A DNA stretch of 64,000 nucleotides from Rhizobiales bacterium PAR1 (GTDB lineage Bacteria > Pseudomonadota > Alphaproteobacteria > Rhizobiales > Beijerinckiaceae). Every line of letters starts with the position of its first letter. Positions within the stretch are counted from its first letter, which is position 1. The notes beneath the pieces are model-generated. The model was not told the origin of the DNA. It did not search any database and saw only the letters and a list, made by a program, of their open reading frames with translations. Position numbers and translations under genes: made by a program. Below, one piece after another: positions 15,932-32,630 of the stretch. Where the stretch lies: NCBI GenBank assembly GCA_002256205.1, contig NKIW01000004.1:62001-126000 (forward strand), in the 5' to 3' direction.

Positions 15932-15949
15932 TAGTTTACATATGAACAA
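15932..15949. promoter_or_regulatory. Imperfect palindrome upstream of acyl-CoA dehydrogenase
   Basis: TAGTTTA-CATA-TGAACAA, an inverted repeat with 7-base arms and two departures from perfect symmetry. A perfect version, TAGTTCA-CATA-TGAACTA, lies upstream of the ETF:quinone oxidoreductase gene at 32613-32630. The form suits a dimeric (for example TetR-type) repressor. The regulator is not in the window. Confidence 0.55.
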
Positions 15950-16084
15950 TCGAGATGCAAGACCCAAGATTGATCCAGAACCCTGAACACAGGATCGATG
16001 GTGCCGCCTCGGGCTTGCAAGTCAAAGCTTCTCCCTAGAAAGGAAGCTACACGTTATCTTCCACGAGGGCAGCAGGTTGACTGT

Positions 16085-16116
16085 CAATCACCAGACATTG
16101 CAATCACCAGACATTG
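16085..16116. repeat. Perfect tandem duplication, 2 x 16 bp
   Basis: The unit CAATCACCAGACATTG occurs twice without a spacer at 16085-16100 and 16101-16116, ending 25 bases before the Sua5 start codon. Identity is complete, so the duplication is probably recent. It could be a slippage product or could double a protein-binding site. Confidence 0.9.
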
Positions 16117-16141
16117 CGCACGATACCTAAGGCCACGCCAA

Positions 16142-17125
16142 ATGCCTGAAGCCACGCCAGTCCACACGCGCGCACTCGGCACCTCCGCAGCGGAAATCGC
16201 GGAGGGTGGGCGCTTGCTCGCGGCGGGGTGCCTCGTCGCCTTCCCGACCGAGACGGTTTACGGCCTTGGGGCCGATGCGACCAACCCTGCCGCGATTGCC
16301 AGCCTCTACGCCGCCAAGGGCCGCCCGAGCTTCAACCCGTTGATCGCGCATGTTGCCCACGTCGAGGATGCCTTTGCGCTGGGGGATTTCCCACCCTCGG
16401 CACGCAAGCTGGCAGAAGCCTTCTGGCCCGGAGCGCTGACGCTGGTGGTGCCGGTTTCGGAAAACTCGCCGGTCTGCGAACTCGCGCGCGCCGGGCTTGC
16501 CTCGATTGCGATTCGCGTGCCGGATCATCCCGTAGCAACTGCTCTGATCAAGGCGGCTGGAAGTCCCATTGCCGCGCCAAGCGCCAACCGCTCCGGACAT
16601 GTCTCGCCGAGCACAGCAGCGCATGTCCATGCCGATCTCGACGGCATCATCGAAGCGGTGCTCGATGGCGGACCGACGCGGATCGGCGTGGAATCCACCA
16701 TTCTCGGCTGTCTCGACGACACTGTGGTGATGCTGCGTCCCGGCGGCATTGCGCGCGAGGCGATCGAGACCATTTTAGGCACCCCCCTTGCCGAGGGAAA
16801 AGGCGACGAAGCCGCGCCGCTCGCGCCGGGACGTCTCACCTCGCATTATGCGCCGAGACAGGTCCTTCGGCTCGATGCGCAGGGCATTCAGCCCGGCGAG
16901 GCCTGCCTCGCGTTCGGCCTTCCCCTGCCGGCAGGGGCAACACCCGCCCTCACGCTCAACCTCTCGGAACGCGGCGATGTCGCGGAAGCTGCCGCGAACC
17001 TCTACCAGCACCTGCGGGCGCTTGACGCGATGGACGCGCAAGGCATTGCTGTTGCTGACTTTCCCCGGCGCGGGCTTGGCGAAGCGATCCACGATCGGCT
17101 AATGCGGGCCGCCGCACCACGCTAG
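16142..17125 (+). CDS. L-threonylcarbamoyladenylate synthase, Sua5 type
   Basis: A 327-residue protein with the YrdC/Sua5 catalytic domain (about 15-200; PTETVYGLGADATN, KGRPSFNPLIAHV, APSANRSGHVSPS) and the C-terminal Sua5 domain (about 240-325) linked by the segment LAPGRLTSHYAPR. It makes threonylcarbamoyl-AMP from threonine, bicarbonate and ATP for the t6A37 modification of ANN-decoding tRNAs. Start at ATG 16142 fits the family; an upstream in-frame start would read through the tandem repeat. Confidence 0.95.
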   Translation: MPEATPVHTRALGTSAAEIAEGGRLLAAGCLVAFPTETVYGLGADATNPAAIASLYAAKGRPSFNPLIAHVAHVEDAFALGDFPPSARKLAEAFWPGALTLVVPVSENSPVCELARAGLASIAIRVPDHPVATALIKAAGSPIAAPSANRSGHVSPSTAAHVHADLDGIIEAVLDGGPTRIGVESTILGCLDDTVVMLRPGGIAREAIETILGTPLAEGKGDEAAPLAPGRLTSHYAPRQVLRLDAQGIQPGEACLAFGLPLPAGATPALTLNLSERGDVAEAAANLYQHLRALDAMDAQGIAVADFPRRGLGEAIHDRLMRAAAPR

Positions 17126-17224
17126 TGCCACCTTGCGCTATCAGTAGTAATGCGGAGTGCGTTCGTGCAAACACTGTGGCATTTTGCAAGCTCATTAGTG
17201 CAATTCTGACGTTGGCTGGCCTTC

Positions 17225-18139
17225 ATGCAACCTCTCGCCTGGGACGATTTCCGCCTCGTCCGAGCTATCGCGGATCACCGGTCGCTAGGCGGCGCTGCCG
17301 AGGCGCTGGGCGTCAACAATTCCACCGTATTTCGACGGCTGAATTCGCTCGAGGAGCATCTCGGCGTGCGTATCTTCGAACGCGCGCGCTCGGGCTATCT
17401 CCTCACCTCCGCTGGCGAAGAGATGGTGACGCTGGCCATGCGCATGGCCGAATCAATTCTCGAATTCGAGCGGCGCATCGCGGGACAGGATGTTCGCCCT
17501 TCCGGCGAATTACGCGTGACGACGACCGACACGATCTTCAGCCATCTCGTCGCGCCGATGTTCTGCGCCTTTCGCCAGCGCTACCCCGAGATCACGCTCG
17601 ATTTCGTGATCGACAACCGCGCGCTAAACCTCTCGCGCCGCGATGCCGATGTCGCGATCCGCGCCTCGGTTGACCCGCCACAGAGCCTTGTCGGGCGCCG
17701 GGTCGGCACCATCGCCTGGGGCGCCTATATCTCGAAGGTTGCTGTGGCCGAAACCAAACCTGACCTTGAGAACGTGACCGCGCTCTGCGCGCCGCCGACG
17801 CGCTGGGTCGGCCTTGGCGATCCGCTGATCGGCACCGCCGGCGGGCGCTGGCTCGCCAATAATGTCGTGCCGGAAGCGATCGCGGTGAAGGTCAACGCGG
17901 TGGCGACGTTGGCCAGCGCGATTGATGCCGGGCTTGGAATCGGCCTGCTGCCCTGCTTCATCGGCGACCAGTTGGAAAACGCGATCCGGGTGCCGGCGAT
18001 CAAGCCCAGTTCGGAAACCGGGATGTGGGTGCTCACCCATCCGGATCTGAAGAAGGCTGCGCGCGTCCGGGCCTTCCTCGATTTCTTCGGGGCGGAACTT
18101 GCCAAGAAGCGCAAGCTCATCGAGGGCGAGGGAACCTGA
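17225..18139 (+). CDS. LysR-family transcriptional regulator
   Basis: A 304-residue regulator with an N-terminal helix-turn-helix (about 6-64; SLGGAAEALGVNNSTVFRRLNSLEEHLG) and a periplasmic-binding-like effector domain (about 90-295). The recognition helix has VNNSTVFRRL rather than the common LSQSAVSRQI. It is followed, in convergent orientation, by an MFS transporter gene; there is no divergent neighbour to suggest a target because the upstream Sua5 gene is on the same strand. Confidence 0.92.
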   Translation: MQPLAWDDFRLVRAIADHRSLGGAAEALGVNNSTVFRRLNSLEEHLGVRIFERARSGYLLTSAGEEMVTLAMRMAESILEFERRIAGQDVRPSGELRVTTTDTIFSHLVAPMFCAFRQRYPEITLDFVIDNRALNLSRRDADVAIRASVDPPQSLVGRRVGTIAWGAYISKVAVAETKPDLENVTALCAPPTRWVGLGDPLIGTAGGRWLANNVVPEAIAVKVNAVATLASAIDAGLGIGLLPCFIGDQLENAIRVPAIKPSSETGMWVLTHPDLKKAARVRAFLDFFGAELAKKRKLIEGEGT

Positions 18140-18214
18140 TTTCCTAGATCCCTCGCAACGATTGGCGACGCCATGCTGCTTGGCGTCGCATTTGCTCCTA
18201 CAAAGACATAGGCG

Positions 18215-19516
18215 TCAGGTCGCGGCCTGAATCTGCCAGCGCCCCGGTGCTGCGCGCTCGATAATCGGCAGATTGATGAGCGCCGAGGCGAGACCGAGGG
18301 CAATCGACAGCCACCAGACGATGTCATAGCTCCCGGTTTTCTCGAACAGGATGCCACCAAGCAGCACGCCGAGAAATCCGCCGACCTGATGCGAGAAAAA
18401 GGCGAACCCATAGAGCATCGCCATGTAGCGCGGGCCGAACATCAGGCTGACGAGCGCCGCCGTAGGGGGAACCGTTGACAGCCAGAGCAGGCCCGTCAGC
18501 GCCCCGAAACTGAGCGCCGCCACCACGCCAACCGTGAGGGGGAGCGTGCCAATCGACGTCAGTCCGAACACCGACACAGGCACGGCCGCGAAGGGAATCG
18601 AGGCCAGCAACCCCAGTGTCACCACCGAGCGCGCGGTATAGATGATCGCGAGAATCCAGCGCTTCGGCATCCGGTTCGAGAGCCACCCCGCGCTCAGCGA
18701 GCCGGCGATATTGAACACACCGACGAGCGCCAGCGTCCAGCCGCCGACCTCGGGCGGAATGCCGATATCCTTGAAATAGCTCGGTAAATGCACGGTAATG
18801 AAGGCAAGCTGGAAGCCACAGGTGAAAAAGCCGAGCACCAGCAACACGTAAGAGCGGTGTCCGAAAGCCTGTGTGAGCGCCTGCATGATGCTCTGGCTTT
18901 CCGCCGCGCTTTGCGCGCCCGCCGCCGGTTTGGTGTTCGGCGTGGTCGCGACGGCAAGCGCAAACGGCAGGATCAGCAGCGTGATCGCAGCGAAGATCAG
19001 CAGCGCATTCTGCCAGCCGTAATCGCGGATCAGGCCGACGCCGATCGGCGAGAACAGGAACTGCCCGAAGGAGCCCGCCGCAGTGCCTGCGCCGAAGGCC
19101 ATCGCGCGCTTTTCAGGCGGCAACAGCTTCGAGAAGGCCGCAAGCACGAGGTTGAACGACGAGCCCGCAAGGCCAAAGCCGATCAGCACGCCCGCCGAGA
19201 GGTTGAGCGTGAGCGGGTCGGTCGCCACCGTCATGGTCGCGAGGCCCGCCGCATAGAGCAGCGCGCCGACGCAAAGCACCTTGAGGGTCCCGAAACGGTC
19301 GGCAATCGCGCCCATGAAGGGCTGGCCGACGCCCCAGAGCAGGTTCTGGAGCGCCAGCGCGAAGGAGAACACATCGCGCCCCCAGCCATTGGCGGAAATG
19401 ATGGGCTGCTGGAAGAAGCCCATCGCGGAACGCGGGCCGAAGCCGATGGTCGCAATCGCGCAACCGCACAGGATAATAAGCCCGGCGGGTACCGCGCGGG
19501 AAACAGATGTGTTCAT
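18215..19516 (-). CDS. MFS transporter
   Basis: A 433-residue protein with about 12 predicted membrane helices in two halves, separated by a loop at about 195-220. The A-loop motif reads GAIADRFGTLKV near residue 69-80 and a second-half copy is GWLSNRMPKR. It resembles the monocarboxylate/oxalate-formate group of the major facilitator superfamily, but the substrate cannot be deduced. The gene is preceded upstream by a nested inverted-repeat element that separates it from glyS. Confidence 0.9.
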   Translation of the reverse strand: MNTSVSRAVPAGLIILCGCAIATIGFGPRSAMGFFQQPIISANGWGRDVFSFALALQNLLWGVGQPFMGAIADRFGTLKVLCVGALLYAAGLATMTVATDPLTLNLSAGVLIGFGLAGSSFNLVLAAFSKLLPPEKRAMAFGAGTAAGSFGQFLFSPIGVGLIRDYGWQNALLIFAAITLLILPFALAVATTPNTKPAAGAQSAAESQSIMQALTQAFGHRSYVLLVLGFFTCGFQLAFITVHLPSYFKDIGIPPEVGGWTLALVGVFNIAGSLSAGWLSNRMPKRWILAIIYTARSVVTLGLLASIPFAAVPVSVFGLTSIGTLPLTVGVVAALSFGALTGLLWLSTVPPTAALVSLMFGPRYMAMLYGFAFFSHQVGGFLGVLLGGILFEKTGSYDIVWWLSIALGLASALINLPIIERAAPGRWQIQAAT

Positions 19517-19648
19517 GGGAAAAACTCCAAAGTTGGCGCCAGCTTAGGAGCGTTTTCCGGCTTTGGCGAGAGGGGCGCCCCTCAAGCTTCGGTGAATTGA
19601 AAGCAGGATGCATGAGCCGGGCTCATGTTCCCTCCCCGCATGTCCCCC

Positions 19649-19755
19649 GGTGTCATTCCCGACCGAGCGCAGCGAGGAGCGGGAATCCAGGACGGATCCA
19701 CCGCACACAAGAACTGGATTCCCGCTCGCGGCTTTGCCGCGTCGGGAATGACACC
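19649..19755. repeat. REP-like nested inverted repeat (GTCATTCCCG type)
   Basis: A 107-base element with perfect outer arms GGTGTCATTCCCGA (19649-19662) and its complement (19742-19755), and perfect inner arms GCGGGAATCCAG (19679-19690) and its complement (19714-19725). Short G+C-rich stems lie between the arms, so the whole can fold as a cruciform. This type of sequence is dispersed in many Hyphomicrobiales genomes. It begins 6 bases after the glyS stop codon and could also end that transcript. Confidence 0.85.
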
Positions 19756-19760
19756 CGGCT

Positions 19761-22052
19761 TTACCCCGCGATCTTGCCGAAATCCGCGACCTGACGCGTC
19801 ACGCGGCGGAGGGCCGCGAGCAGCGCGAGGCGGTTCTGCCGGATGGCCGGATCGTCGGCATTGACCATCACCGCCTCGAAGAAGGCATCGACCGGCGCGC
19901 GAAGCTTGGCCATGGCGCGCATCGCGGCTTCGAAATCCTGCTTCTGAAGCGCGATGGCGGCCGCTTCGCCCACGATCGAGAGCGCATCGTGCAGCGCCTT
20001 TTCGCTCGCCTCGGCGAGCAAGGCGGGGTTGGCAGCGGCTTCGAATTTGCCTTCGCCGTCCTTCTTTTCCTCGGCGCGGAGGATGTTCGCGGCGCGCTTG
20101 CACCCGGCGAGCAGCGATTTTCCATCCTCGGTTTCGAGGAATTTGCCGAGCGCTTCAACGCGGCGGACGACGAGCAGGAGATCGTCATTCGCTTCGCCAT
20201 TGGCGAGCACAGCATCGACGAGGTCATGCCGCGCACCTTGGTCGCGGAGCATGACCTTCAGGCGATCATGGAAGAAGGAAAGGAGATCATTGGAACGATC
20301 AATTTCCCATGATTGCGGGGGAACTGTCGATTTTTCATCTTTTAAAAGCGTAACGAGACGCTCAATCGTTTCTCCAAATTCCTTGAAAGCCGGGTTTTGA
20401 ATTGCTCCCAAGATTGCCTCAGATGGAAGAGAGACTTTCCTTGAGCGGCTTACCTCAAAAAGTTGGGCCATTACGAGGCGACCCGAAAAAACTGTAATTT
20501 GGCGTAAACCGCCAGCCAGCCCATTCTCGACAATCAGCCGAATAACCCCCAACGCCGCTCTTCTGAGCGCATAGGGGTCCTTCGAGCCGGTGGGCTTTTC
20601 GTCAATCGCCCAAAAGCCGACGAGGGTATCGAGCTTGTCCGCGAGTGCGACGGTGACGGAGACCTTGTCGGTCGGCACCGAGTCCGTCGGCCCGACAGGC
20701 TTGTAATGCTCCTCGCAGGCCGCTGCTACCGAAGCAGGAAGGCCGAGAATCGTCGCGTATTTGCGGCCCATCAGGCCCTGAACTTCCGGGAATTCGCCGA
20801 CAACCTCGGTCTGCAAATCGGCCTTGCAGAGCCGTGCCGCGAGATCGACCTCGGCTTCGTCAGCGCCGGTGACCTTGCAGAGTTCCTTCGCCAACGCGCG
20901 GATGCGCTCGATGCGGTCCCACTGGCTGCCGAGCTTCTCGTGGAAGGTGACGTTCTTGAACTTTTCGAGCCGCTTGAATTCCGGGTCTTCCTTCCAGACC
21001 TTGCGGTCGGTGTCCCAGAAGAATTTCGCATCCGAGAGGCGGGCGCGGATAACGCGCTCATTACCGGCAATGATAGTCTTACCGCCGTCTTTCGCGATGA
21101 TATTCGAGATCAGCAGGAAGCGGTTCGCAAGTTCTCCCCCCATCGCCTTCGCTTCTGCCGTGCCATCGGCTTTTTTCAGCACGAAGCACTTCTGGTTGGC
21201 GCGGATCGTGGCGCGGATCACCTCGCCCGGCACATCGAGGAAGGCTTCCTCGAACGAACCCATCAGCACCACTGGCCATTCAACAAGGCCTGCGACTTCC
21301 TCGAGCAGGCCCTCATCCTCGATGACCTCCAGGCCTTGCGCGAACGCGAGGTTCTTTGCCTCGTGGCGGACGATATCCTTGCGACGATCCGCATCAAGCA
21401 CGACCTTGGCGGCTTCGAGCTTGGTGACATAGTCATCGAAGCGCCGCACCGTGATCGCGCCGGGCGCCAAAAACCGGTGACCATAGGTGACATTGCCGGC
21501 TTTCAACCCATCGACCTCGAAGGGCACGATCTCCGGTTCTTCCGTCTCGGCGCCGAAGGTCGCGACGATGGCGCGCAACGGGCGCACCCATCTCAGCGAA
21601 GACGACGAGGTGCTCGCCGCGCCCCAGCGCATCGATTTCGGCCAGGGGAAGGTGCGGATGATGCCGGGCAGGATTTCCGCCAGCACATCAAGCGTCGCGC
21701 CGCCCTTCTTCTCGATCACGGCGACATAGAACTCGCCCTTCTTCGGATCGCTCTCGATTTTCGCCTGCGCGATATCCGTGAGGCCCGCGGACTTCAGAAA
21801 GCCCTGCACCGCAGCATCCGGCGAGCCGACACGCGGCCCCTTCTTCTCCTCGCGCGTATCGGGCTGGCGCACCGGCAAGCCGACGATATTCAATGCGAGG
21901 CGTCGCGGCGTCGCAAAAGCCTTCGCACCCTCATAGGTGAGGCCGCGATCAACCAGCGCGTTGGTCACGAGACGCTTGAGGTCCTCCGCCGCCTGCCGCT
22001 GCATGCGGGCCGGAATTTCCTCGGAGAAGAGTTCGAACAGAAGATCGGGCAT
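19761..22052 (-). CDS. glyS: Glycyl-tRNA synthetase beta subunit
   Basis: A 763-residue subunit of the alpha2-beta2 glycyl-tRNA synthetase, recognised by the N-terminus [14 protein letters not shown] and the C-terminal HD-like/anticodon region ([22 protein letters not shown]). It binds tRNA-Gly while GlyQ makes the adenylate. It is somewhat longer than the usual 690-710 residues: a stretch of about 75 residues near 500-585 (from [10 protein letters not shown] to EIDRSNDLL) is encoded by DNA at 20281-20520 of about 46% G+C, far below the flanks. It looks like an insertion or a replaced segment. glyQ is upstream, separated by three small genes. Confidence 0.95.
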
Positions 22053-22076
22053 GGGTTCAAGGCCGTAGTTGAAGAG

Positions 22077-22565
22077 CTATTGGCTCTTAAAGCGTGAAAT
22101 CGGGAAGAGAAGCGGTTGAGATTCGTGCATCTGGTCGCGATACCCTTCTTCCCAAGGAAACTTGCCATTGGACGGGTCGGGCAGAACGCATTGAAGAACA
22201 GGGAAGGGCTTTCGGTCGTAATACCAGTCCGTCCAAGTCAAATGGTGCAGGGCCGCTTTCTGGTCTAGCTGATCAACAAAAATCACAGGCCAATTGCCGA
22301 CGAACCCCTCGTACCGCTCCCCCGGCTCGAATGTTTCACCCGCCGCAAGGCGAGCTGCGTATTCATTGACCAGAAAGTGCCCGACCTCCGGCGAAAGGCC
22401 GAAGACTATCAGCTCCGCGTGCCCAACACGCCTGAAAATCCCACATGAATAGTGGAACATCGGCTCGGTATCAGGATCATCGGGATAGATAATCCGAACA
22501 ACCCAGCCGAATTTTTCGACATCATCGAGAAATTTCTGATCTGCCGGGTTGGAAGCGACGGGCAT
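22077..22565 (-). CDS. DUF4262 domain protein
   Basis: A 162-residue cytoplasmic protein matching DUF4262: FGWVVRIIYPDDPDTEPMFH, YSCGIFRRVGHAELIVFGL, and the HLTWTDWYYDRKPFPVLQC segment. The family has no known function and is scattered in bacteria. The gene is about 54% G+C by my count, lower than its neighbours, which suggests it was acquired and inserted between the CDGSH gene and glyS. It starts 8 bases after the CDGSH stop codon. Confidence 0.82.
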   Translation of the reverse strand: MPVASNPADQKFLDDVEKFGWVVRIIYPDDPDTEPMFHYSCGIFRRVGHAELIVFGLSPEVGHFLVNEYAARLAAGETFEPGERYEGFVGNWPVIFVDQLDQKAALHHLTWTDWYYDRKPFPVLQCVLPDPSNGKFPWEEGYRDQMHESQPLLFPISRFKSQ

Positions 22566-22573
22566 GGATTCTA

Positions 22574-22816
22574 TCAAAGCTTCTTGTGGGCGCCGTCGCA
22601 GAGCGGGGCGTTGGCGGTCTGCTTGCAGGTGCAGAAGAACACCTTCTTGTCTTCGGTCGCGGTCCACTGCTGCGGCGAGAACTTGCCCTCGGCCTTATGC
22701 GCGCCATCGCAGAACGGCTGGTTCTTCGATTGGCCGCAAGTGCACCACCAGTAATCCTTGCCGGCGGTGACATCGACGCCAATCGGGGCGGTTCCGGCAA
22801 CATGGGCTTTGGTCAT
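22574..22816 (-). CDS. CDGSH iron-sulfur domain protein, dual cluster
   Basis: An 80-residue protein with two CDGSH-type motifs, each ligating a 2Fe-2S cluster by three Cys and one His: Cys25, Cys27, Cys36, His40 and Cys62, Cys64, Cys73, His77 (CDGAH in both). Such miner-type proteins are small electron or cluster carriers. AGGAG lies 7-8 bases before ATG 22816, so this start is preferred over ATG 22822. Adjacent to the DUF3828-like and DUF4262 genes. Confidence 0.92.
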   Translation of the reverse strand: MTKAHVAGTAPIGVDVTAGKDYWWCTCGQSKNQPFCDGAHKAEGKFSPQQWTATEDKKVFFCTCKQTANAPLCDGAHKKL

Positions 22817-22840
22817 GGTCATTCTCCTGTTCAAAGGGCC

Positions 22841-23326
22841 TTATTGGCCTTTAGCGCCGGCGATCAGCATGGTGGAAAGCCGCCAGCCGAATTCCTTGGC
22901 CGGGTTCACGATATCGTCGATTTTCCACTCATTCCCATCGAGCATCACCTCGTAGAAAAGCGTCACCTCGGGCTCAGTCTTGAACTGTTTGAACTTCACG
23001 ACCACCACCGCATAGCCGGCGCCGCGCGGCTCAACCGCATACTTAAGGGTCTTGCGGAAATCGTCGTCCGAATCCTGGCCTGCGATGATTGGGTCGAAAT
23101 CGAGACCGGACACCGGCTCGTTGAGCTGTTTCGACTTCTTGGTCGCTGCCGCATAAAGCGCGCGGAGCTTCTTCGTATAAGGGCGCTGCACATCCTTGAC
23201 CTTGGGGTCATAGACACGTTTCACCGCTGCGAGGGGATTATCAAGCACAGGCGAAGCGCTCTGTGCGAATGCGGGGAACGCAAGGGCCAAGAGACTGGTG
23301 GTGAGGAACGCGCGGCGGTGCATCAT
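22841..23326 (-). CDS. Exported protein, DUF3828-like
   Basis: A 161-residue protein with a signal peptide (about 1-22, [20 protein letters not shown], cleaved after AFA) and a small domain with the hydrophobic strands [11 protein letters not shown] and [20 protein letters not shown], resembling DUF3828. It probably works in the periplasm; function unknown. Its ATG overlaps the glyQ stop codon (ATGA), so the two are translationally coupled. Confidence 0.8.
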
Positions 23327-24315
23327 GCCCCACCCGCTTCGGTCTTCACCCAAGCCGCGCCGCAGGCCTTGGCGAGTTCACGCACCTTGAGGATGTAGCT
23401 CTGCCGTTCTGTCACCGAAATCACGCCGCGCGCGTCGAGCAGGTTGAAGGCGTGCGACGCCTTGATGCACTGATCATAGGCCGGGAGCACCTGACGATGC
23501 CGCTCGCCCTCGCCACGCTCGCCTTTCGAGAGCAGCGAGAGGCATTCCTTCTCGGCTTCGGCAAAATTTCGGAACAGTTTGTCGGTATCGGCGTATTCGA
23601 AGTTATGGCGGGAGTATTCTTCTTCCGCCTGCTTGAACACGTCGCCGTATGTGACCTTCTGATCCCCTTCGAGACCGTTGAAGTTCAGCTCAAAGCCGTT
23701 ATCGACGCCCTGCAGATACATCGCCAGGCGCTCGAGGCCATAGGTCAGCTCCCCCGCGACCGGCGCGCATTCCTGCCCGGCGACCTGTTGGAAGTAGGTG
23801 AATTGGCTAACTTCCATGCCATCGCACCAGCATTCCCAGCCGAGGCCCCAGGCACCGAGCGTCGGGCTTTCCCAATCGTCCTCGACGAAGCGCAGGTCGT
23901 GCAGCGCAGGGTCGATGCCGATGGCGTAGAGGCTTTCGAGGTAGAGTTCCTGGAGGTTCGGCGGGCTCGGCTTCAGGATCACCTGAAACTGGTAGTAATG
24001 CTGGAAACGATTGGGGTTCTCGCCATAACGCCCATCCTTCGGGCGGCGTGAGGGCTGGACATAGGCGGCATTCCAAGGTTTCGGGCCGAGTGCACGCAGC
24101 GTCGTCGCCGGGTGGAAAGTCCCCGCGCCGACTTCCATGTCGTAGGGCTGGAGGATCACGCAGCCCTTTTCCGCCCAGAAGCGCTGGAGCGTCAGGATCA
24201 GCCCCTGAAACGAGCGTTCGGGACGGAGAGGAGCAGGCAGGGTCGCAGAAGCTGTCACGGGGAATGGTCTCGCGTACAAAGCCGCGGCTGTGATGGCCGA
24301 CGGCGAAAATTCCAT
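23323..24315 (-). CDS. glyQ: Glycyl-tRNA synthetase alpha subunit
   Basis: The catalytic class II subunit that makes glycyl-adenylate. Core motifs are [36 protein letters not shown] and [11 protein letters not shown]-type sequence ([15 protein letters not shown]). The form from ATG 24315 has 330 residues; homologues start near [13 protein letters not shown], so a GTG at 24258 giving 311 residues is a real alternative. Neither start has a strong Shine-Dalgarno sequence. It is the first gene of the minus-strand cluster that ends with glyS. Confidence 0.95.
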
Positions 24316-24493
24316 CGATTTCGCTTAGCGAGCAGCCCGCTTCGCCGCAAGCCTTTCCTGTCAAACAAACCTTTCCTGCCAATTGCATTGCCATTCAGCC
24401 CTGTGCGGGAACGCACTTCGGCCCGAAGCGATCGGCGGCATGGTGTTTCTCAAGGGGCGGCGATGACCTCCCCGCACCAACAGGAGAAACCCC

Positions 24494-24937
24494 ATGAACA
24501 CCCAGATGAAGACCTCAAACCGCAAAACCCGCTTCAGCCACTTTGCCCTGGCGCTTTCACTCTCCCTCGGCACTGTCGGTGGCATGATGGGCTTTATTGC
24601 CATCACCGAACCTGCCTTTGCTGCCGCAGCCGGCGGCGGTGGTGGAGGTGGCGGTGGTGCTGGTGGCGGCGCCAACGGCGGCGGCGAAGCCAGCGTTATG
24701 AGTGTGTCACGCGGCCCCGCGCTGCCCAACAATCCGCCGATTGTGCGCCGTTCCACACCTGTCACGGCGAACGGTTGTACTACCGCACGCAACACACCAG
24801 ACCTGCAGAACTGCCATTATGGCGAACGTGGCACCCCGCGCATTGTCAACATCCACGGCTTTGCCAACTGCGCGGTGATCGGCCAATTGCCCGGCGCGAA
24901 TGGACGCGGCGAGTTCTACTGCCTCCGTCCGATGTAA
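24494..24937 (+). CDS. Secreted glycine-rich small protein
   Basis: A 147-residue protein of unknown function: basic N-terminus, hydrophobic segment at about 17-40 with cleavage likely near AFAAAA, then a low-complexity run of glycine and alanine (about 46-66) and a C-terminal part with four cysteines (GCTTAR, NCHYG, NCAVIG, YCLRP) able to form two disulfides. AGGAG precedes the start. It is followed by a clear terminator at 24981-25010, so it is a single-gene unit. Confidence 0.75.
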   Translation: MNTQMKTSNRKTRFSHFALALSLSLGTVGGMMGFIAITEPAFAAAAGGGGGGGGGAGGGANGGGEASVMSVSRGPALPNNPPIVRRSTPVTANGCTTARNTPDLQNCHYGERGTPRIVNIHGFANCAVIGQLPGANGRGEFYCLRPM

Positions 24938-24980
24938 CGGCGCATCTGCCTCTCTGGAACCTCCCGCCAGATCTCCCGAA

Positions 24981-25010
24981 AAGGCCCCGGCTCGTTGCCG
25001 GGGCCTTGTT
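24981..25010 (+). terminator. Rho-independent terminator
   Basis: Perfect 10-bp stem AAGGCCCCGG / CCGGGGCCTT (24981-24990 and 24998-25007), 7-base loop, followed by GTT. It ends the transcript of the glycine-rich secreted protein. The T-tract is short, so efficiency is uncertain. Confidence 0.75.
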
Positions 25011-25190
25011 CTGGTCGGAGCCTCGTCATGATCAAGGCCTTGTCGCGCGGGCCTTTGCTTGACCGATGTCGACCGCTGCGCCCGAGATCAGGGGCAGCCC
25101 TCGAAGGGCATGATCCGGTCCCTCTGTTTCGCTGCCGTTCATCTTTCCCGACGTAGCGTTGGCTCCGGGCGACTTGATGGGAGAAAGACA

Positions 25191-25514
25191 ATGGTTAGAG
25201 CTACCCACTTCATTCTTGCGGCACTCTTCGCCGCCGTTCTCGGTGTTGCTGGCCTTGCGCCTGCCCGCGCCGCAACCATGCCGGCGGGCTCTGTTCTGTC
25301 GGTCGATCAGGCCTCAAAGCCGCAGACTGAAAGCGTGCGCTATTACGGTCGCCGCGTGCATTATGGCCGCCCGGTCTATCGCCGCGCCTATTACCACCGC
25401 CCGGTTCGCTACTATCGTGCGCCGGTCGTCTACCGCCGCTGCGCGATGCGTCCGCGCGTGGTCTGGACGCCCTATGGCTATGTGCGCCGCTGGGTTCGCG
25501 TTTGCCGCTACTGA
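25191..25514 (+). CDS. Small secreted Tyr/Arg-rich protein
   Basis: A 107-residue protein with a signal peptide (about 1-28, ending APARAA) and a mature part dominated by Tyr, Arg, His and Val (YYGRRVHYGRPVYRRAYYHR). Two cysteines near the C-terminus could pair. GGGAGAAAG lies 5 bases upstream of ATG 25191. Short envelope proteins of this type are frequent in Hyphomicrobiales but have no assigned function. A terminator follows at once. Confidence 0.8.
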   Translation: MVRATHFILAALFAAVLGVAGLAPARAATMPAGSVLSVDQASKPQTESVRYYGRRVHYGRPVYRRAYYHRPVRYYRAPVVYRRCAMRPRVVWTPYGYVRRWVRVCRY

Positions 25515-25536
25515 TCGGCACCGAAAATCACGAGAG

Positions 25537-26307
25537 CTAACGGGCGGATTTTCCGCCCGTTTTCATGTCGAGACGCGCGCGGCCAGTATGAAGCGCCGCC
25601 GCCTCTTCGAGAAACCCTCCATCGGCGCCATGCAGAACCAGCGGCGGCAGGATGGCGAGCGGTGCACGGGAGCCTTTCTTGCCCGACACCAGCACCCGGA
25701 TCGCCGGCGAAGCGGCATCTGGATGGATAAGACGCAAGCGGATCTCGCCCAGTCGGAGCGTGAACGCCGCCAGAAGCGCTTCCAGCGTATCCGCGCGATG
25801 GATCACGATCAGATGCCCTTTAGGCGCGAGAATCGTAACCGCATTTTTCACCCAGTCGTCGAGCGTCCCGTCGAGCACATGGGCGCTCGCACGTCCCGGC
25901 GTGGTGGAAACGCGGATGGCGCGCGCATCGAAAAACGGCGGATTGCTGAGCACACAGTCGAAGGCCTCCCGCAAATCAGGTTCCGCACCGAGCCGGAAGG
26001 CATCGACCTCCCGCGCAACGACGCGCGCCTGCATTCGGTTGAGCACGGCGTTATCGCGGGCCAGTGAAGCCAGCGCCGGTTCGCGCTCAAGGAGGGTGAT
26101 GCCAGCCTCCGGATTATGCAACGCGGCGCCAAGCCCGACAGCCCCGGTCGCTGCACCAAGATCGGCGATGCGCCGGCTTTCGGGCTGTACAGCAGCGGCG
26201 AGCAGCACGGCATCGGTTCCGGCGCGATGGCCCTTTTCGGGCTGGCGCAAGATCAGGCGACCGCCGTAGAGCGCATCCTGCGTCACGCCGTCCGGAAGCG
26301 TGCCCAT
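25537..26307 (-). CDS. TrmN6-like tRNA1(Val) (adenine-N6)-methyltransferase family
   Basis: A 256-residue class I methyltransferase with SAM loop ADLGAATGAVGL (48-59) and the amino-methyltransferase motif NPPF at 122-125 (SNPPFFDARA), as in TrmN6, which methylates N6 of A37 in tRNA1(Val). GGGAG lies 8 bases upstream of ATG 26307, supporting this start over longer forms that would overlap the polyprenyl synthase leader. Divergent from the polyprenyl diphosphate synthase gene. Confidence 0.86.
   Translation of the reverse strand: MGTLPDGVTQDALYGGRLILRQPEKGHRAGTDAVLLAAAVQPESRRIADLGAATGAVGLGAALHNPEAGITLLEREPALASLARDNAVLNRMQARVVAREVDAFRLGAEPDLREAFDCVLSNPPFFDARAIRVSTTPGRASAHVLDGTLDDWVKNAVTILAPKGHLIVIHRADTLEALLAAFTLRLGEIRLRLIHPDAASPAIRVLVSGKKGSRAPLAILPPLVLHGADGGFLEEAAALHTGRARLDMKTGGKSAR
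25540..25564. terminator. Bidirectional terminator overlapping a CDS end
   Basis: Stem ACGGGCGGA / TCCGCCCGT (25540-25548 and 25552-25560), loop TTT, followed by TTTTC. It ends the Tyr/Arg-rich gene. The same bases encode the last residues (KTGGKSAR) and stop of the converging methyltransferase gene, so the hairpin is shared with coding sequence. Confidence 0.8.
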
Positions 26308-26468
26308 GCCCATCTCTCCCGGTGTCACGCCGACATCCCCATCCAAAAAGCGTCCTGCAGACCGTTGCGGCAAAGGCGCAAGTTGCATTTCGCGTCGCGA
26401 GCGTGCAAGCGTATTTGCCGAACCAGACATCCTTTCCGCCGCCATCCGGCAGCCGGAAGGGTACTCTC

Positions 26469-27497
26469 GTGGGGGAACAGGTTGTGGGCGTAGTCGTATC
26501 CTTCGGCGAAAAGCCAGGCGCCGAAAGTATTGATCATCTCGTCGCGCTGGTGCGTGATGACATGGTGCGCGTGAATGAGACGATCCTGTCGCGGACAGGC
26601 TCGGATGTCACAATGATCCCGGAAGTCGCGCAGCACCTGATTTCCTCGGGCGGCAAGCGCCTTCGTCCGATGCTGACGCTCGCAACGGCAATCCTGAGCC
26701 GCTACCCCGGTCAGGGGCATATCAAGCTCGCGGCCTCGGTCGAGTTCATGCACACGGCGACGCTGCTCCATGACGATGTCGTCGATGAGAGCGATCTGCG
26801 CCGGGGCAAACCATCGGCGCGCAAGGTCTGGGGCAACGAGGCGAGCGTGCTCGTCGGCGATTTCCTGCTTGGCCAAGCCTTCAAGATGATGGTCGAGGTC
26901 GGCTCGCTCCAGTGCCTCGACGTGCTGTCCACCGCCGCCGCCGTGATCGCGGAAGGCGAGGTGATGCAACTCGCAGCTGCCAAGAATACCTCGACTACCG
27001 AGGACGATTATCTTGCGGTGATCCGCGCCAAGACCGCCGCGCTGTTTGCCGCAGCGGCGGAAGTCGGTCCCATTTTGGCCGATGCACCCGAGGATGCGCA
27101 GAAGGCCTGCCGCTCCTACGGGCTCAATCTTGGCATTGCCTTCCAGCTCATCGACGATGCGCTTGATTACGGCGGAACCAGCGCCAAGCTCGGCAAGAAT
27201 GTTGGCGACGATTTCCGCGAGGGCAAGATCACGCTGCCGGTGGTGCTCGCGTTCCGGCGGGGCTCGGATGAGGAGCGTGCGTTCTGGAAGGCGTCACTCG
27301 AAGGCGGCAACACTGATGATGCCGCGCTCGCCAAGGCGCGTGAATTACTCAAGAAGCATCGTGCGCTGGAAGACACGGTCGAGCGCGCCCGCCATTACGG
27401 CGCGATGGCCAAGGACGCGCTGGCACTATTCCCGGCCTCGCCCATGCGCGAAGCCCTCGGCGAAGTCGTCGATTTCTGCGTCAGTCGAGCGCATTAG
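26469..27497 (+). CDS. Polyprenyl (octaprenyl/decaprenyl-type) diphosphate synthase
   Basis: A 342-residue trans-prenyltransferase with both aspartate-rich motifs, DDVVD at 102-106 (DDVVDESDLRRGKPS) and DDALD at 229-233. It elongates farnesyl or geranyl diphosphate with IPP to build the side chain of ubiquinone; chain length cannot be read from the sequence. The GTG at 26469 is preceded by GGAAGGG at a good distance. dxs and ispE of the same pathway are also in the window. Confidence 0.93.
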   Translation: MGEQVVGVVVSFGEKPGAESIDHLVALVRDDMVRVNETILSRTGSDVTMIPEVAQHLISSGGKRLRPMLTLATAILSRYPGQGHIKLAASVEFMHTATLLHDDVVDESDLRRGKPSARKVWGNEASVLVGDFLLGQAFKMMVEVGSLQCLDVLSTAAAVIAEGEVMQLAAAKNTSTTEDDYLAVIRAKTAALFAAAAEVGPILADAPEDAQKACRSYGLNLGIAFQLIDDALDYGGTSAKLGKNVGDDFREGKITLPVVLAFRRGSDEERAFWKASLEGGNTDDAALAKARELLKKHRALEDTVERARHYGAMAKDALALFPASPMREALGEVVDFCVSRAH

Positions 27498-27503
27498 GCC
27501 ACG

Positions 27504-28019
27504 TCAATCTGCCGGAGGCATATCCTTCAAAAGGAAGAGATCCGTATCATCGGGCTTTGCGCCAGCCGCTGTCAGCATGGCATGGACCTGCCCGCGATGA
27601 TGGGTCTGATGGTTGAAGAGATGCGACACCAGAAACCAGTTGGGCTTGGAAACCTCGCGCCCGGCTGCCCCGGAATACCAGCTCATATCGCCAGCGAGCC
27701 ACTCCTCCGAGAGGCCATCGGACCAGATGACGATGGCCTCGTCTACCGCAACGCGCTCGCGCTTGAGCATATCCCACTCCGGCAAGCGCTTTGTTGAGTC
27801 CGCAATCCCGCCAACCGGTTTTGGCGTTCCGGCGAAACGATGCATCCAGACGCCATCGCCCCACAGGAGGTGATTGAGCGTGCCTTCAATGGAGGCAAAA
27901 AAAGCTCCGCGGTCCTTGCGGCGCTCCTCCGGAGAAAGCATATCCGCCGCCGTATAGAGCGACCGATTTTGCCAGCGGTTATAACGGGCCATGGTGCGGA
28001 CAAACTGAAGTGAAATCAT
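27504..28019 (-). CDS. DinB family protein
   Basis: A 171-residue four-helix protein of the DinB/YfiT superfamily. The metal ligands are His in LNHLLWGD and the pair in LFNHQTHHRGQVH, the usual three-His arrangement. Many members are thiol-dependent transferases (for example with bacillithiol or mycothiol), but the substrate here is unknown. GGGAG lies 8 bases before ATG 28019. It converges with the polyprenyl synthase gene, with 6 bases between the stops, and lies downstream of ispE. Confidence 0.9.
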   Translation of the reverse strand: MISLQFVRTMARYNRWQNRSLYTAADMLSPEERRKDRGAFFASIEGTLNHLLWGDGVWMHRFAGTPKPVGGIADSTKRLPEWDMLKRERVAVDEAIVIWSDGLSEEWLAGDMSWYSGAAGREVSKPNWFLVSHLFNHQTHHRGQVHAMLTAAGAKPDDTDLFLLKDMPPAD

Positions 28020-28041
28020 CGTCACGGCTCCCTGCTATTTT

Positions 28042-28905
28042 TTAATGCGGCACCTGAATCCGGCAGGGCTGCAACCACCATAGACCCTCGCGCATCCGCA
28101 GCACCTCGGCGGCGCGCAACACATCGGCCTCACTCTCGAAGAGGCCGAAACAGGTCGCGCCGGAGCCGGACATCCGGGCAACCTGGCAGCCGGCGGCTGC
28201 GCTCAACGCCTTGAGAACACGCTCGATTTTGGGAGCGATCGCCTTGGCGGGCGCCTCCAGGTCATTGCGGGTCTCTGCCGCGAGCCGGGCGAACCTGTCG
28301 CCGCCGGAAGATGCGCCTGCGGGTTGCAGGAGACGCTGGCCGGGCTGAAGTCCAAGGCCCGAGAAAACCGCGCGTGTTTCCACCGCCACACCCGGATTGA
28401 TCAACAACGCAGGGGTATCCGCATGCGCAAGCACCGGCCCAAGCTCATGGCCGATGCCGCGCATCAGTCGCGGCCGGACCTCGACGCAGACCGGCACATC
28501 CGCACCCAGTTCGCGTGCAATCGCCAGCACGCGCGGATCTGTTGCATCCATCTGGTTGGCGCGGCACAGGAGCCTGAGTGCTGCTGCGGCATCGGATGAC
28601 CCACCGCCGAGGCCAGAGGCGACCGGTAGGTTCTTGGTCAGGGAGAAGCGTCCCGCTCGTGCGGCAGGAAAGGCGGCGAGAAACAGCCGCGCCGCGCGCA
28701 AGACGAGGTTATCATCCTCCGCCACGAGCCCGCCGGCCATCGGGCCATCAATCGTCAGGGAGAGACGCGCCGCCAATTCCAGCGCGAGATCATCACCGAC
28801 ATCGGCAAAGCCGACGAGGCTTTCAATGAGGTGATAGCCATCATCCCGCCGTCCGAAGACATGCAGGAAGAGGTTGATCTTGGCCGGTGCGCGATCGTGA
28901 TGCAC
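28042..28905 (-). CDS. ispE: 4-(cytidine 5'-diphospho)-2-C-methyl-D-erythritol kinase
   Basis: A 287-residue GHMP kinase. Hallmarks are the N-terminal APAKINLFLHV, the ATP loop LPVASGLGGGSSDAAAALR and the C-terminal MSGSGATCFGLF. It phosphorylates CDP-methylerythritol in the MEP pathway, the fourth step after dxs. It follows the TPR gene with 33 bases between them on the minus strand, an arrangement seen in many Hyphomicrobiales. Confidence 0.96.
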   Translation of the reverse strand: MHHDRAPAKINLFLHVFGRRDDGYHLIESLVGFADVGDDLALELAARLSLTIDGPMAGGLVAEDDNLVLRAARLFLAAFPAARAGRFSLTKNLPVASGLGGGSSDAAAALRLLCRANQMDATDPRVLAIARELGADVPVCVEVRPRLMRGIGHELGPVLAHADTPALLINPGVAVETRAVFSGLGLQPGQRLLQPAGASSGGDRFARLAAETRNDLEAPAKAIAPKIERVLKALSAAAGCQVARMSGSGATCFGLFESEADVLRAAEVLRMREGLWWLQPCRIQVPH

Positions 28906-28938
28906 GGCAGTCCGGTATCCCGTTTGCGCAGATGTGCT

Positions 28939-30774
28939 CTAGCCGCCGTTCGGCTTGGGGGCCGCGGCGTTGGCCGCCGGGCCTTCCTCAAGGCCAAGGT
29001 CAAGCTTCTTCTTGATCTTCTCGATCTCTTCCGGCTCGGGGTTCAGCGTCAGCGTCTGGCTCCACTTGAAGCGAGCCTCGCGCTTGCGTCCGACCTTCCA
29101 GTAGGCATCGCCGAGATGATCGTTGATCGTGGGGTCACCCGCCTTAAGCATGATCGCGCGCTCAAGTTCGCGCACGGCATCCTCGAACTTGCCGAGGCGG
29201 TAAAAAGCCCAGCCGAGAGAATCGACAATGGCGCCATCGCCCGGCGCGAAGGCCACGGCCTCGCGGAGCATGTCGAAGGATTTGTCGATATTCATGTGAT
29301 TATCGACCCAGGAATAGGCGAGGTAATTCATCACCTGCGCCCGTTCGGCGGCTTCGCGCGGGCTGCGCGGCTTCACCGGCAGCAGGTCGAGCGCGCCGAG
29401 GAAATCCGGCTCGGCCTTGTCCCACTGCTTCGAGCGCTCGTACCCGATCGCGCGGCCGAACAGCAGGGGCCAATGGCGCTGCTCCAGCTTGGCGACCGAT
29501 TTGAGCGCGACGTCATAGACCTTTACCGAATCCGCCCAACGCTTCTTGGAACGCAGGATGGCGCCGAGCGTATCCGCCGCTTCGAGATCATCGGGGTGAG
29601 CCGCCAGCAGCGTCTGAAGAACGTTGATGGCCTCGTCCGATTTTTCGAGCCGCTCCAGCGCCGCTGCGCGACCGATCGCAGCACGGTTGGCGAGCGGGGA
29701 AGAGGCCGGAACCAGCTCGTAAAGGCTCGCGGCACGGGCATTCTGGCGCAATTGCTCGAAGAATTCGGCGAGCGTGACCGCAATCACCTCATCCTTCGGA
29801 TTGAGATAGCGCGCGAACTGAAGGTAGATCACCGCCGTCATCGGATCCCGCGAGGCAGAGCCCACAACGCCGAGACCGTAGAAGACTTCTGCCGCGCCCT
29901 CGGAAACTGTGCTGACCAGCGGCGGCAGCGATTCACCCTTGTCGAGCGCCTCGATCTGGCGGCTGAGATAGGGCTGAGCCGGGTTGCGAGCACGCCACTG
30001 CGCGATCACTTCCTTGGCTTCGGGGATCTTGCCTTGCCGCGAAAGGATGCGCGCATAGGCATCGACCACGCGCATGACGCCGACATCGCTCTTGAAGGCG
30101 CTGGCAAGGCGGGTCTCGGCCTCGTTCTGGCGTTTACCGACCTCAGAGATCAATCCGCCGAAGAAATCGCGATAGCCACGCAATTCGTTCTGCTTGAAGC
30201 GATCAACGCCTTGCAGCGCAGCACCGACGTCGCCCGCACCGACCTGTGCCCAGGCACGAAGCAGGGCAATGGTAAGATCGGGCTCGGTGCGGGAATTGCC
30301 GCCAGCGCGTTCAAAACTCACACGGGCCTTATCGAATTGTCTGGCACCGAGCGCCTTCACACCTAGCGCGACCTGCGCCAACGCCTGCGTCCGATCCTGC
30401 CTGACCAGCCGATCCGCGAGCTTGAAGGCTTCGTCAAGATTGCCATCAACCAGAGCGGCGATGAAGGCCTGGTCCATCAGGCCGGCATTGCGCGGATCAG
30501 CCTTCAGGGCTTCGCGGAAATACTCCGCAGCGGCAGCGGTGTCATGCTCGGTATTCGCGACGACACCCGCGAGAAAGAGGCCAGATGCGCCGTAACCGCT
30601 CGTCGCCCGTTCGGCGGGTGTCGCGGCGGAAGCCTGCGCAAGCCCCAGTAGCAGCGCCGCGGTCGCGAGCGCGGCACCGAACGTCTTGCGTTGACGGGCC
30701 GGCATCACCTGCGCCTGGGAGCGAGCCGTCTTCTTTTCGGAACTACCGTACATTCTTGTGAGCCAATCCCGCAT
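28939..30774 (-). CDS. Exported TPR-repeat protein
   Basis: A 611-residue protein with a long N-terminus, a signal-like segment (about 31-51, FGAALATAALLLGLAQASAAT) and many tetratricopeptide repeats, such as AAAAEYFREALKADPRNAGL near 80 and AVRELERAIMLKAGDPTINDHLGDAYWKVGRKREA near 545-580. TPR proteins scaffold complexes; the partner is unknown. A shorter form starting at Met24 would place the signal peptide at the very N-terminus. The C-terminus is a low-complexity Ala/Pro/Asn tail. Confidence 0.88.
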   Translation of the reverse strand: MRDWLTRMYGSSEKKTARSQAQVMPARQRKTFGAALATAALLLGLAQASAATPAERATSGYGASGLFLAGVVANTEHDTAAAAEYFREALKADPRNAGLMDQAFIAALVDGNLDEAFKLADRLVRQDRTQALAQVALGVKALGARQFDKARVSFERAGGNSRTEPDLTIALLRAWAQVGAGDVGAALQGVDRFKQNELRGYRDFFGGLISEVGKRQNEAETRLASAFKSDVGVMRVVDAYARILSRQGKIPEAKEVIAQWRARNPAQPYLSRQIEALDKGESLPPLVSTVSEGAAEVFYGLGVVGSASRDPMTAVIYLQFARYLNPKDEVIAVTLAEFFEQLRQNARAASLYELVPASSPLANRAAIGRAAALERLEKSDEAINVLQTLLAAHPDDLEAADTLGAILRSKKRWADSVKVYDVALKSVAKLEQRHWPLLFGRAIGYERSKQWDKAEPDFLGALDLLPVKPRSPREAAERAQVMNYLAYSWVDNHMNIDKSFDMLREAVAFAPGDGAIVDSLGWAFYRLGKFEDAVRELERAIMLKAGDPTINDHLGDAYWKVGRKREARFKWSQTLTLNPEPEEIEKIKKKLDLGLEEGPAANAAAPKPNGG

Positions 30775-30892
30775 TCGCGACGAGTCGCGTCAAGTCAATC
30801 ATTGAACCGGTTAGCACCGAAACAAGGCCGCAGAAAGGCCCCCGGCACGAGATATCCGGCGAGAGAGATCTCGGGGCTGGTTCACCGTCGCT

Positions 30893-32569
30893 TCACATAT
30901 TCGGGTAGGTCGGCCCGCCACCGCCCTCGGGCGCAATCCAGTTGATGTTCTGGCTCGGGTCCTTGATGTCGCAGGTTTTGCAGTGGACGCAGTTCTGCGC
31001 GTTGATCACGAAGCGCGGATCGGTCTTGTTGACCTCATCGCCATAGAGCACCTCATAGACGCCCGCCGGGCAATAAAGCCGCGCCGGTTCGCCGTAGATC
31101 GGCAGGTTTTTCGACAGCGGGATCGAGGGGTCCCTCAGGGTGAGGTGGATCGGCTGATCCTCCTCGTGGTTCGTGCCCGAGAGGAAAACACTGGAGAGCT
31201 TATCGAAGGAGATCACGCCATCCGGCTTCGGATAGGTGATCGGTTTCACCTCGCCAAGCGGCTTCAGCGAGGCTGCATCGGTCTTGCCGTGCTTCAGGGT
31301 GCCGAAGAAAGACAAGCCGAGCAGCTCGTTCGTCCACATATCAAGCGCACCGAGCGGAATGCCGATCCAGGTGCCGAACTTCGACCACAACGGCTTGACG
31401 TTGCGGACCTTCTTCAGATCCTTGCCGATCTCGCTTCCGCGCCAGCCGGCATCATAGGCTGTCAGTTCGTCATGCGCGCGGCCTGCTGCGAGCGCGGTGG
31501 CAATATGCTCCGCCGCCTGCATGCCCGAGAGCATCGCGTTATGGCTGCCCTTGATGCGCGGCACATTCACGAAGCCCGCCGAGCAGCCAATCAGCGCGCC
31601 GCCGGGGAAGGAAAGCTTCGGCACGGACTGATAGCCACCCTCGGTGATCGCACGGGCGCCGTAGGAGAGGCGTTTGCCGCCCTCCAGCACCTCACGGATC
31701 ATCGGATGCTGCTTGAAGCGCTGGAATTCATCGAAGGGCGAAAGCGTCGGGTTCTGATAATTCAGATGCACGACGAAGCCGATGGAGACCAGGTTTTCGT
31801 CAAAATGATAAAGGAACGAGCCGCCGCCGGTCTTCGAATCGAGCGGCCAGCCGAAGCTGTGCTGCACGAGACCTGGCTGATGCTTTTTCGGGTCGATCCG
31901 CCAGAGTTCCTTGATGCCGATGCCGAATTTCGGCACATCGCGGCCCTTGGCAAGGTCGAACTTCGCGATGAGCTGCTTGGAGAGATGTCCGCGCACGCCC
32001 TCGCCAAAGAGGGTATACTTGCCGAGCAGCGCCATACCACGCGTGTAGGTGTCCTTCATCTCGCCATCACGGCCTATGCCCATGTCACCGGTCGCGATGC
32101 CGATGACGGCACCTTCATCATTGTAGAGCACTTCCTGAGCGGCAAAGCCGGGATAAATTTCAACGCCAAGGGCTTCTGCCTTGGTCGCGAGCCAGCGGCA
32201 GAGATTGCCAAGCGAAATGACGTAGTTGCCGTGATTGTCGAGCAGCTTCGGCATCGCGATATTCGGCAGCCGCATCGCGCCCGCCGGGCCGAGGAAATAG
32301 AAGCGGTCATCCGTGACAGGCGTTTTGACCGGGCAATCCGGATCGTTGCGCCAGTCCGGGATCAATTTATCGAGGCCGACAGGATCGATCACCGCGCCGG
32401 AAAGGATGTGCGCGCCGACTTCGGAGCCCTTTTCCACAAGAACAACGGAAATCTCCTCGCCCTTCTCGGCGGCAAGTTCCTTCAGCCGGATCGCCGCAGA
32501 AAGCCCTGCCGGGCCGCCGCCCACGATAACGACGTCGTATTCCATGGCATCGCGTTCCGGCAGTTCCAT
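30893..32569 (-). CDS. Electron transfer flavoprotein-ubiquinone oxidoreductase
   Basis: A 558-residue enzyme that passes electrons from ETF to ubiquinone. The N-terminal FAD site is VVIVGGGPAGLSAAIR (about 13-28), and the C-terminal 4Fe-4S cluster is bound by cysteines in LYCPAGVYE and NCVHCKTCDIKDPSQ. The start at 32569 has GAAGGGA upstream and keeps the conserved MEYDVVIVGG close to the N-terminus. A perfect 18-base palindrome 44 bases upstream matches one before the acyl-CoA dehydrogenase gene. Confidence 0.97.
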   Translation of the reverse strand: MELPERDAMEYDVVIVGGGPAGLSAAIRLKELAAEKGEEISVVLVEKGSEVGAHILSGAVIDPVGLDKLIPDWRNDPDCPVKTPVTDDRFYFLGPAGAMRLPNIAMPKLLDNHGNYVISLGNLCRWLATKAEALGVEIYPGFAAQEVLYNDEGAVIGIATGDMGIGRDGEMKDTYTRGMALLGKYTLFGEGVRGHLSKQLIAKFDLAKGRDVPKFGIGIKELWRIDPKKHQPGLVQHSFGWPLDSKTGGGSFLYHFDENLVSIGFVVHLNYQNPTLSPFDEFQRFKQHPMIREVLEGGKRLSYGARAITEGGYQSVPKLSFPGGALIGCSAGFVNVPRIKGSHNAMLSGMQAAEHIATALAAGRAHDELTAYDAGWRGSEIGKDLKKVRNVKPLWSKFGTWIGIPLGALDMWTNELLGLSFFGTLKHGKTDAASLKPLGEVKPITYPKPDGVISFDKLSSVFLSGTNHEEDQPIHLTLRDPSIPLSKNLPIYGEPARLYCPAGVYEVLYGDEVNKTDPRFVINAQNCVHCKTCDIKDPSQNINWIAPEGGGGPTYPNM

Positions 32570-32612
32570 CTTATTTTCCCTTCGCAACGGACCCATTCAT
32601 CGGCTTTCCCAA

Positions 32613-32630
32613 TAGTTCACATATGAACTA
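32613..32630. promoter_or_regulatory. Perfect palindrome upstream of ETF-QO
   Basis: TAGTTCA-CATA-TGAACTA: 7-base perfect arms with a 4-base spacer, 44 bases upstream of the ETF-QO start and 110 bases upstream of the uracil-DNA glycosylase start. A variant with two changes lies before the acyl-CoA dehydrogenase operon at 15932-15949. Confidence 0.65.

Follow-up and report, generated by a model that had tools for sequence, protein, structure and literature searches.

The stretch of DNA analysed here, called the window below, comprises 64,000 nucleotides of Rhizobiales bacterium PAR1 (bases 62001-126000 of contig C19 in the 4.2-Mb genome G000). It contains two palindromes of 18 bases, TAGTTCACATATGAACTA and TAGTTTACATATGAACAA, located before the gene for electron transfer flavoprotein-ubiquinone oxidoreductase (ETF-QO) and before a gene cluster starting with an acyl-CoA dehydrogenase (ACAD1). 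Comparative genomics gives good support to a role for both as operators in a regulon for fatty-acid beta-oxidation. The features at the two sites, both of which lie in divergent intergenic regions, are the following.

32613..32630, no strand: palindrome TAGTTCACATATGAACTA, putative operator of ETF-QO, whose listed start is 17 bases away
15932..15949, no strand: palindrome TAGTTTACATATGAACAA, putative operator of ACAD1, whose listed start is 123 bases away
30893..32596, minus strand: ETF-QO, target; Pfam PF05187 (Fer4_ETF_QO) and PF21162 (ETFQO_UQ-bd)
14034..15809, minus strand: acyl-CoA dehydrogenase ACAD1, which leads the target cluster; Pfam PF00441, PF12806, PF02770 and PF02771
13272..14024, minus strand: enoyl-CoA hydratase, 9 bases after ACAD1; NF004681 above cut-off
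12330..13196, minus strand: SDR family oxidoreductase, downstream of the enoyl-CoA hydratase; NF006133 above cut-off
32740..33543, plus strand: family-4 uracil-DNA glycosylase (UDG), divergent neighbour of the ETF-QO site; TIGR00758 above cut-off
15998..17125, plus strand: L-threonylcarbamoyladenylate synthase, divergent neighbour of the ACAD1 site; TIGR00057 above cut-off

The palindromes are 16.7 kb apart and identical at 16 of 18 bases including the CATA spacer, exactly as an earlier note on this DNA had described them, and the Pfam and NCBIfam matches agree with the genes it had named as targets, ETF-QO and an acyl-CoA dehydrogenase/crotonase/SDR cluster. Judged from the spacing, ACAD1, the enoyl-CoA hydratase and the SDR gene presumably share one operon. 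The UDG and threonylcarbamoyl-AMP synthase genes are probably not the intended targets of the sites. With up to three mismatches TAGTTCACATATGAACTA was found in the window at these two places only and not once in 100 shuffles, a comparison made with a pattern that had been picked after the sites were known. A blind search of the window for look-alike pairs of 18-base palindromes (each pairing at 7 or more of 9 positions, at most two mismatches between the copies) returned no pair, because the site at 15932 pairs at only 6 of 9 positions, and of 40 windows simulated from its dinucleotide frequencies, 21 contained one or more such pairs. Taken alone, the window pair is weak evidence, and the weight of the case for a regulon therefore comes from the rest of the genome and from relatives.

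In the whole genome, TAGTTCACATATGAACTA occurs at eight places with up to three mismatches, its reversed control at none. The five strongest genome sites precede ETF-QO, ACAD1 and the first three genes listed here, which are followed by the weaker sites.

C19:442246, strong site: ACAD2, a second acyl-CoA dehydrogenase
C4:22303, strong site: etfB
C15:160066, strong site: FadD-type ligase, best models long-chain-fatty-acid--CoA ligases (the sequence piece ends at the locus end and scores below the full-length model cut-offs)
C18:29925, weaker site: DUF2780 protein
C18:36289, weaker site: Mpo1-like protein
C18:402076, weaker site: DUF2147 protein
C18:266910, weaker site: FadL, found with a shorter 14-base pattern that also has 1 to 2 control matches

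The earlier note had proposed a small regulon of two sites. The shared control of fatty-acid genes is supported, the size is not, since we found five strong sites and three weaker kinds that are supported in relatives. Its expectations for a genome scan held for etfB, a FadD-type ligase and, weakly, FadL; no thiolase site was seen among the sites found. Functionally, a shared operator before genes for uptake, activation and oxidation is what characterises a fad-type regulon, with FadL as the weak member in this genome, and the system thus appears to be a fad-type regulon under a candidate MarR-family regulator.

The operator is conserved in related bacteria before the same kinds of genes, as the earlier note had expected. 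A scan of named genomes with TAGTTYACATATRAAC gave at least 118 loci; the counts that follow refer to the matches listed, sorted by title. Among them are 55 loci titled as Hyphomicrobiales, including Methylobacterium, Methylorubrum, Microvirga, Bosea, Salinarimonas, Rhabdaerophilum, Methylovirgula and metagenome-assembled genomes, and in 54 of these the site precedes a regulon-type gene according to the best reference match downstream (ACAD2 31, ETF-QO 14, ACAD1 5, etfB 2, fadD 1, FadL 1). At the remaining one (L102), the site is located 105 bases from the sequence end, beside the UDG gene, the neighbour of ETF-QO in the window. The 63 other loci comprise three with ACAD2 or ETF-QO, titled Proteobacteria or Alphaproteobacteria, and 60 with none. 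When 120 genomes sampled from the order were scanned for the consensus, allowing one mismatch, it was present in three of the four genomes of the window's own family and in none of the 116 others (the reversed control matched in 4 of these 116), and the close consensus is in this sample confined to the family.

Within the family, 40 of 60 genomes carry sites with up to two mismatches, 108 sites altogether compared to five control matches. For 80 distinct sites of other genomes among the 108 the downstream genes were tabulated in 81 rows, one site appearing twice, and in 69 rows the site precedes a recurring target: ACAD2 (26), ETF-QO (17), ACAD1 (12), DUF2780 (5), FadL (3), fadD (2, one site counted twice), DUF2147 (2), etfB (1) and, in one row, an acyl-CoA ligase gene with a MarR gene on the other side of the site. 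Of the 12 other rows, nine have no match, two only Lrp-type regulators (L201, L214) and one, L220, a 27% match to ACAD2; by eye the protein at L220 resembles an acyl-CoA dehydrogenase. Loss of the target genes was considered as the full cause of motif loss and rejected: five motif-negative genomes (G155, G132, G124, G156 and G170) still have a gene resembling ACAD2 (60-65% identity in 65 N-terminal residues), and the 400 bases upstream of it contain no site with fewer than seven mismatches, thus absence of the gene is not the whole explanation.

The regulator had been predicted to lie outside the window, and the best candidate is indeed encoded about 20 kb to its left, at C19:41556-42056. This protein of 167 amino acids, L035, belongs to the MarR family according to PF12802 (68.1 bits, cut-off 27) and PF01047 (62 bits, cut-off 24.6), and several agreeing lines of evidence point to it as the reader of the operators. 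An orthologue, defined by an E-value below 1e-40 (a cut-off chosen once the gap between 1e-42 and 1e-21 was known), is present in 35 of the 60 family genomes: 35 of the 40 genomes with the motif have it, none of the 20 without (Fisher p = 1.3e-11). Counted by genus, the numbers are 24 of 28 and 0 of 13 (p = 1.4e-7). In the order sample such matches were restricted to the four family genomes, all others having at most 39% identity. Two control MarR proteins, counted at E-values up to 1e-15, do not track the motif (L038, p = 0.17; L041, p = 0.29).

The surroundings of the orthologues, inspected in 30 of the 35 genomes, are consistent with this assignment. A site with at most four mismatches is found within 200 bases upstream of the MarR gene in nine of the 30 loci, and none elsewhere in these loci (96,590 positions). 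In 12 of the 30 a gene similar to the acyl-CoA ligase of L213 adjoins the MarR gene, divergently in all 12; the L213 ligase passes the cut-off of a long-chain-fatty-acid--CoA ligase model, and at L213 the operator sits between the two genes. The recognition helix TKGN[VI]SGL is nearly invariant across the 30 orthologues. Beyond the order, among the matches listed, the palindrome is located 13-66 bases before a MarR gene in nine of the 63 non-Hyphomicrobiales loci (L134, L142, L073, L060, L101, L055, L080, L123 and L172, with titles naming Armatimonadetes, Thermoflexus, Marinimicrobia, Pseudomonas, Thalassolituus in two cases, Oceanospirillaceae, Oleibacter and Dysgonomonas). The helix core [IVL][STA]GL occurs in eight of these nine proteins and in none of 13 other MarR proteins of G000; over 12 residues, only L134 (10 identical), L142 (8) and L055 (6) exceed the other MarR proteins of G000 (1 to 5).

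Alignment of 125 non-duplicate contexts, each reaching 60 bases to either side of the site, having a target no more than 700 bases away and in many cases coming from related species, yielded the extended symmetric consensus AGATAGTTYAYATRTRAACTATCT. A TTG at -18 is present on the gene strand in 31 of the 125 contexts and on the mirror strand in one, and together with a 17-base spacer it places the -10 hexamer on TAYATR inside the palindrome, which suits a repressor covering the promoter. L035 would accordingly sit on operators overlapping the -10 region of the target promoters and most likely repress them by blocking RNA polymerase. Fatty acids would enter via FadL and be activated by FadD-type ligases; the resulting acyl-CoA would most likely bind the MarR protein, which would then leave the operators, allowing the ligase, the acyl-CoA dehydrogenases, EtfAB and ETF-QO to be made together as one electron route from acyl-CoA to quinone. 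Some MarR proteins respond to acyl-CoA thioesters. We propose acyl-CoA as the signal because of these proteins, the ligase neighbour, the pathway itself and the precedent of FadR-like control. The shared operator, its targets, its conservation and the regulator gene tracking it are supported by the data, and we regard the explanation as a whole, operators read by L035 and repressed until acyl-CoA releases it, as likely.

A number of observations argue against it. The degenerate consensus TAGTTYAYATRTRAACTA with up to three mismatches has eight matches in the genome and five in the control, and with a control nearly as frequent, three-mismatch sites of the own genome need backing from relatives; the family rows provide it for the DUF2780, DUF2147 and FadL sites (5, 2 and 3 rows), and the Mpo1-like site has no counterpart among the 81 rows. 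The average promoter register is driven mainly by ACAD2. The TTG at -18 is absent at both window sites, where the sole promoter-like match is on the UDG strand, and the ACAD1 group has TT at -11/-10 instead; a single fixed -35/-10 register, which holds on average, was therefore rejected in favour of a register that varies. The co-occurrence statistics ignore kinship and can be inflated by shared ancestry, and their control consists of two MarR profiles only, one of which, L041, is too rare (4 of 60 genomes) for a strong control. At E-values up to 1e-15 the motif-negative genome G148 has a distant L035 match. No close L035 orthologue was found in G138 (92% complete, 430 contigs), G157 and G172, all three with well-placed sites, nor in G136 and G142, which were counted as motif-positive. 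The L035 gene of G000 has no site upstream, and the same holds, at up to four mismatches, for 21 of the 30 orthologue loci. A site upstream of the own gene or in a divergent intergenic region is typical for MarR regulators, not universal.

The siteless L035 gene and the three genomes with well-placed sites would be accounted for if the regulon were real and read by another regulator, such as a different MarR, a PsrA- or FadP-like TetR or a GntR protein, with L035 merely distributed in a similar way; the regulator search covered the TetR and MarR families. This idea is unlikely, because it has to be set against the presence of L035 orthologues in 35 of 40 motif-positive and none of the 20 motif-negative genomes with two other MarR proteins not tracking, against the sites upstream of nine of the 30 orthologues and none elsewhere in those loci, and against the acyl-CoA ligase neighbour. 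In G000 the regulator models gave 13 TetR and 22 MarR matches, and among the MarR matches are some whose sequences resemble Lrp or ArsR proteins. A TetR regulator of the PsrA/FadP type was rejected, the best of the 13 TetR loci scoring 4.7 compared to about 30 for strong sites in a matrix built from the five strong sites. In other phyla it is MarR genes, not TetR genes, that adjoin the palindrome, and no TetR gene adjoins a site among the at least 118 named loci (both among the matches listed). The earlier note had expected a TetR or similar regulator gene; a candidate was found, and it is a MarR protein. Two other MarR proteins were early candidates by motif similarity, L041 with two tandem GTTCAATATTGAAC palindromes before it and L038 with TAGTTTCATTTGAAACTA before it, and were dropped since neither tracks the motif.

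Somewhat more room, although still doubtful, has to be given to an L035 that activates its targets or senses something other than acyl-CoA, for instance a free fatty acid or the redox state, since the direction of control and the ligand are both deduced. The average position of the -10 hexamer inside the palindrome suits a repressor; the ligase neighbour and the target list suit an acyl-CoA signal, as does the likeness to known acyl-CoA-responsive regulators. That the palindromes are chance look-alikes or plain promoter elements lacking a dedicated regulator is hardly conceivable. Look-alike pairs in the simulated windows and the partial overlap of the motif with the average -10 element favour such an origin, but the symmetric consensus is maintained over all 125 contexts, the motif is tied to one pathway in the named-genome scan (among the matches listed) and, at one mismatch, absent from the 116 other-family genomes of the order, and the family sites far outnumber the control matches (108 and 5).

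A comparative survey names FadR, PsrA and FadP as regulators of fatty acid degradation and restricts FadR to gammaproteobacteria and FadP to betaproteobacteria (PMC5343134). PsrA and FadP, in gamma- and betaproteobacteria, are likewise dedicated regulators with palindromic sites before scattered beta-oxidation genes, according to the same survey (PMC5343134). Both are TetR proteins, whereas the candidate here is a MarR protein and the 13 TetR loci have no comparable site. The PsrA and FadP regulons include ETF genes. FadR of E. coli and relatives controls fatty acid uptake, activation and oxidation in a coordinated way with acyl-CoA as the signal; this scope resembles that of the regulon described here, but FadR belongs to the GntR family. 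FabT, HpaR and CouR are MarR proteins like L035, which weakly matches the FabT and HpaR models and the HpaR and CouR chains, its scores being far below the cut-offs of the FabT and HpaR subfamily models (FabT 31.1 of 200 bits, HpaR 31.4 of 121.2 bits). FabT and CouR have acyl-type effectors. In contrast to these three regulators, the targets here belong to fatty acid degradation. The best solved relative of L035, 3boq (E = 7.5e-16), carries no more specific name than MarR-family regulator. Searches of the open PMC literature, which includes few subscription papers, listed no fatty acid degradation regulator of the MarR type from Alphaproteobacteria.

A large bacterial family with soil-dwelling, plant-associated and methylotrophic members thereby gains a concrete operator, a candidate for its regulator and a list of targets, and DUF2780 and DUF2147, protein families of unknown function, become tied to fatty acid metabolism. 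Small DUF2780-like (L207, L211, L217, L227, L238) and DUF2147-like (L208, L223) proteins recur behind the operator in relatives, which suggests an unrecognised role in fatty acid use. We consider it probable that across the family, including Methylobacterium, Microvirga and Bosea, fatty acid catabolism has come under a MarR-type repressor as master regulator in place of FadR, PsrA and FadP, that DUF2780 and DUF2147 proteins are new parts of fatty acid use and that the palindrome is also read by MarR relatives in other phyla. The operator-regulator pair might also serve as an acyl-CoA sensor.

In one relative, G169, the close site TAGTTCTTATATGAACTA (L244, C25:163099-163116), which belongs to the 12 rows without a recurring target, is located between a crotonyl-CoA carboxylase/reductase gene and a methylmalonyl-CoA-mutase-like gene, hinting that the regulon may extend to acetyl-CoA assimilation there. 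A perfect consensus site in G145 (L246, C316:10432-10449) lies 21 bases before the gene for a protein of 320 amino acids that is nitronate monooxygenase-like by eye and matches no NCBIfam model at E-values up to 1e-30. The tandem palindromes before L041, ATGTTCAATATTGAACAT and TAGTTCAATATTGAACAA, occupy C15:322936-322973 of G000, ahead of the MarR gene at 323019-323498; L041 is divergent from a gene that by eye is alpha/beta-hydrolase-like, and has an orthologue in only four of the 60 family genomes. For the threonylcarbamoyl-AMP synthase reading frame beside the ACAD1 site (15998-17125), the listed start is probably too early, since homology in relatives begins at about residue 48-77.

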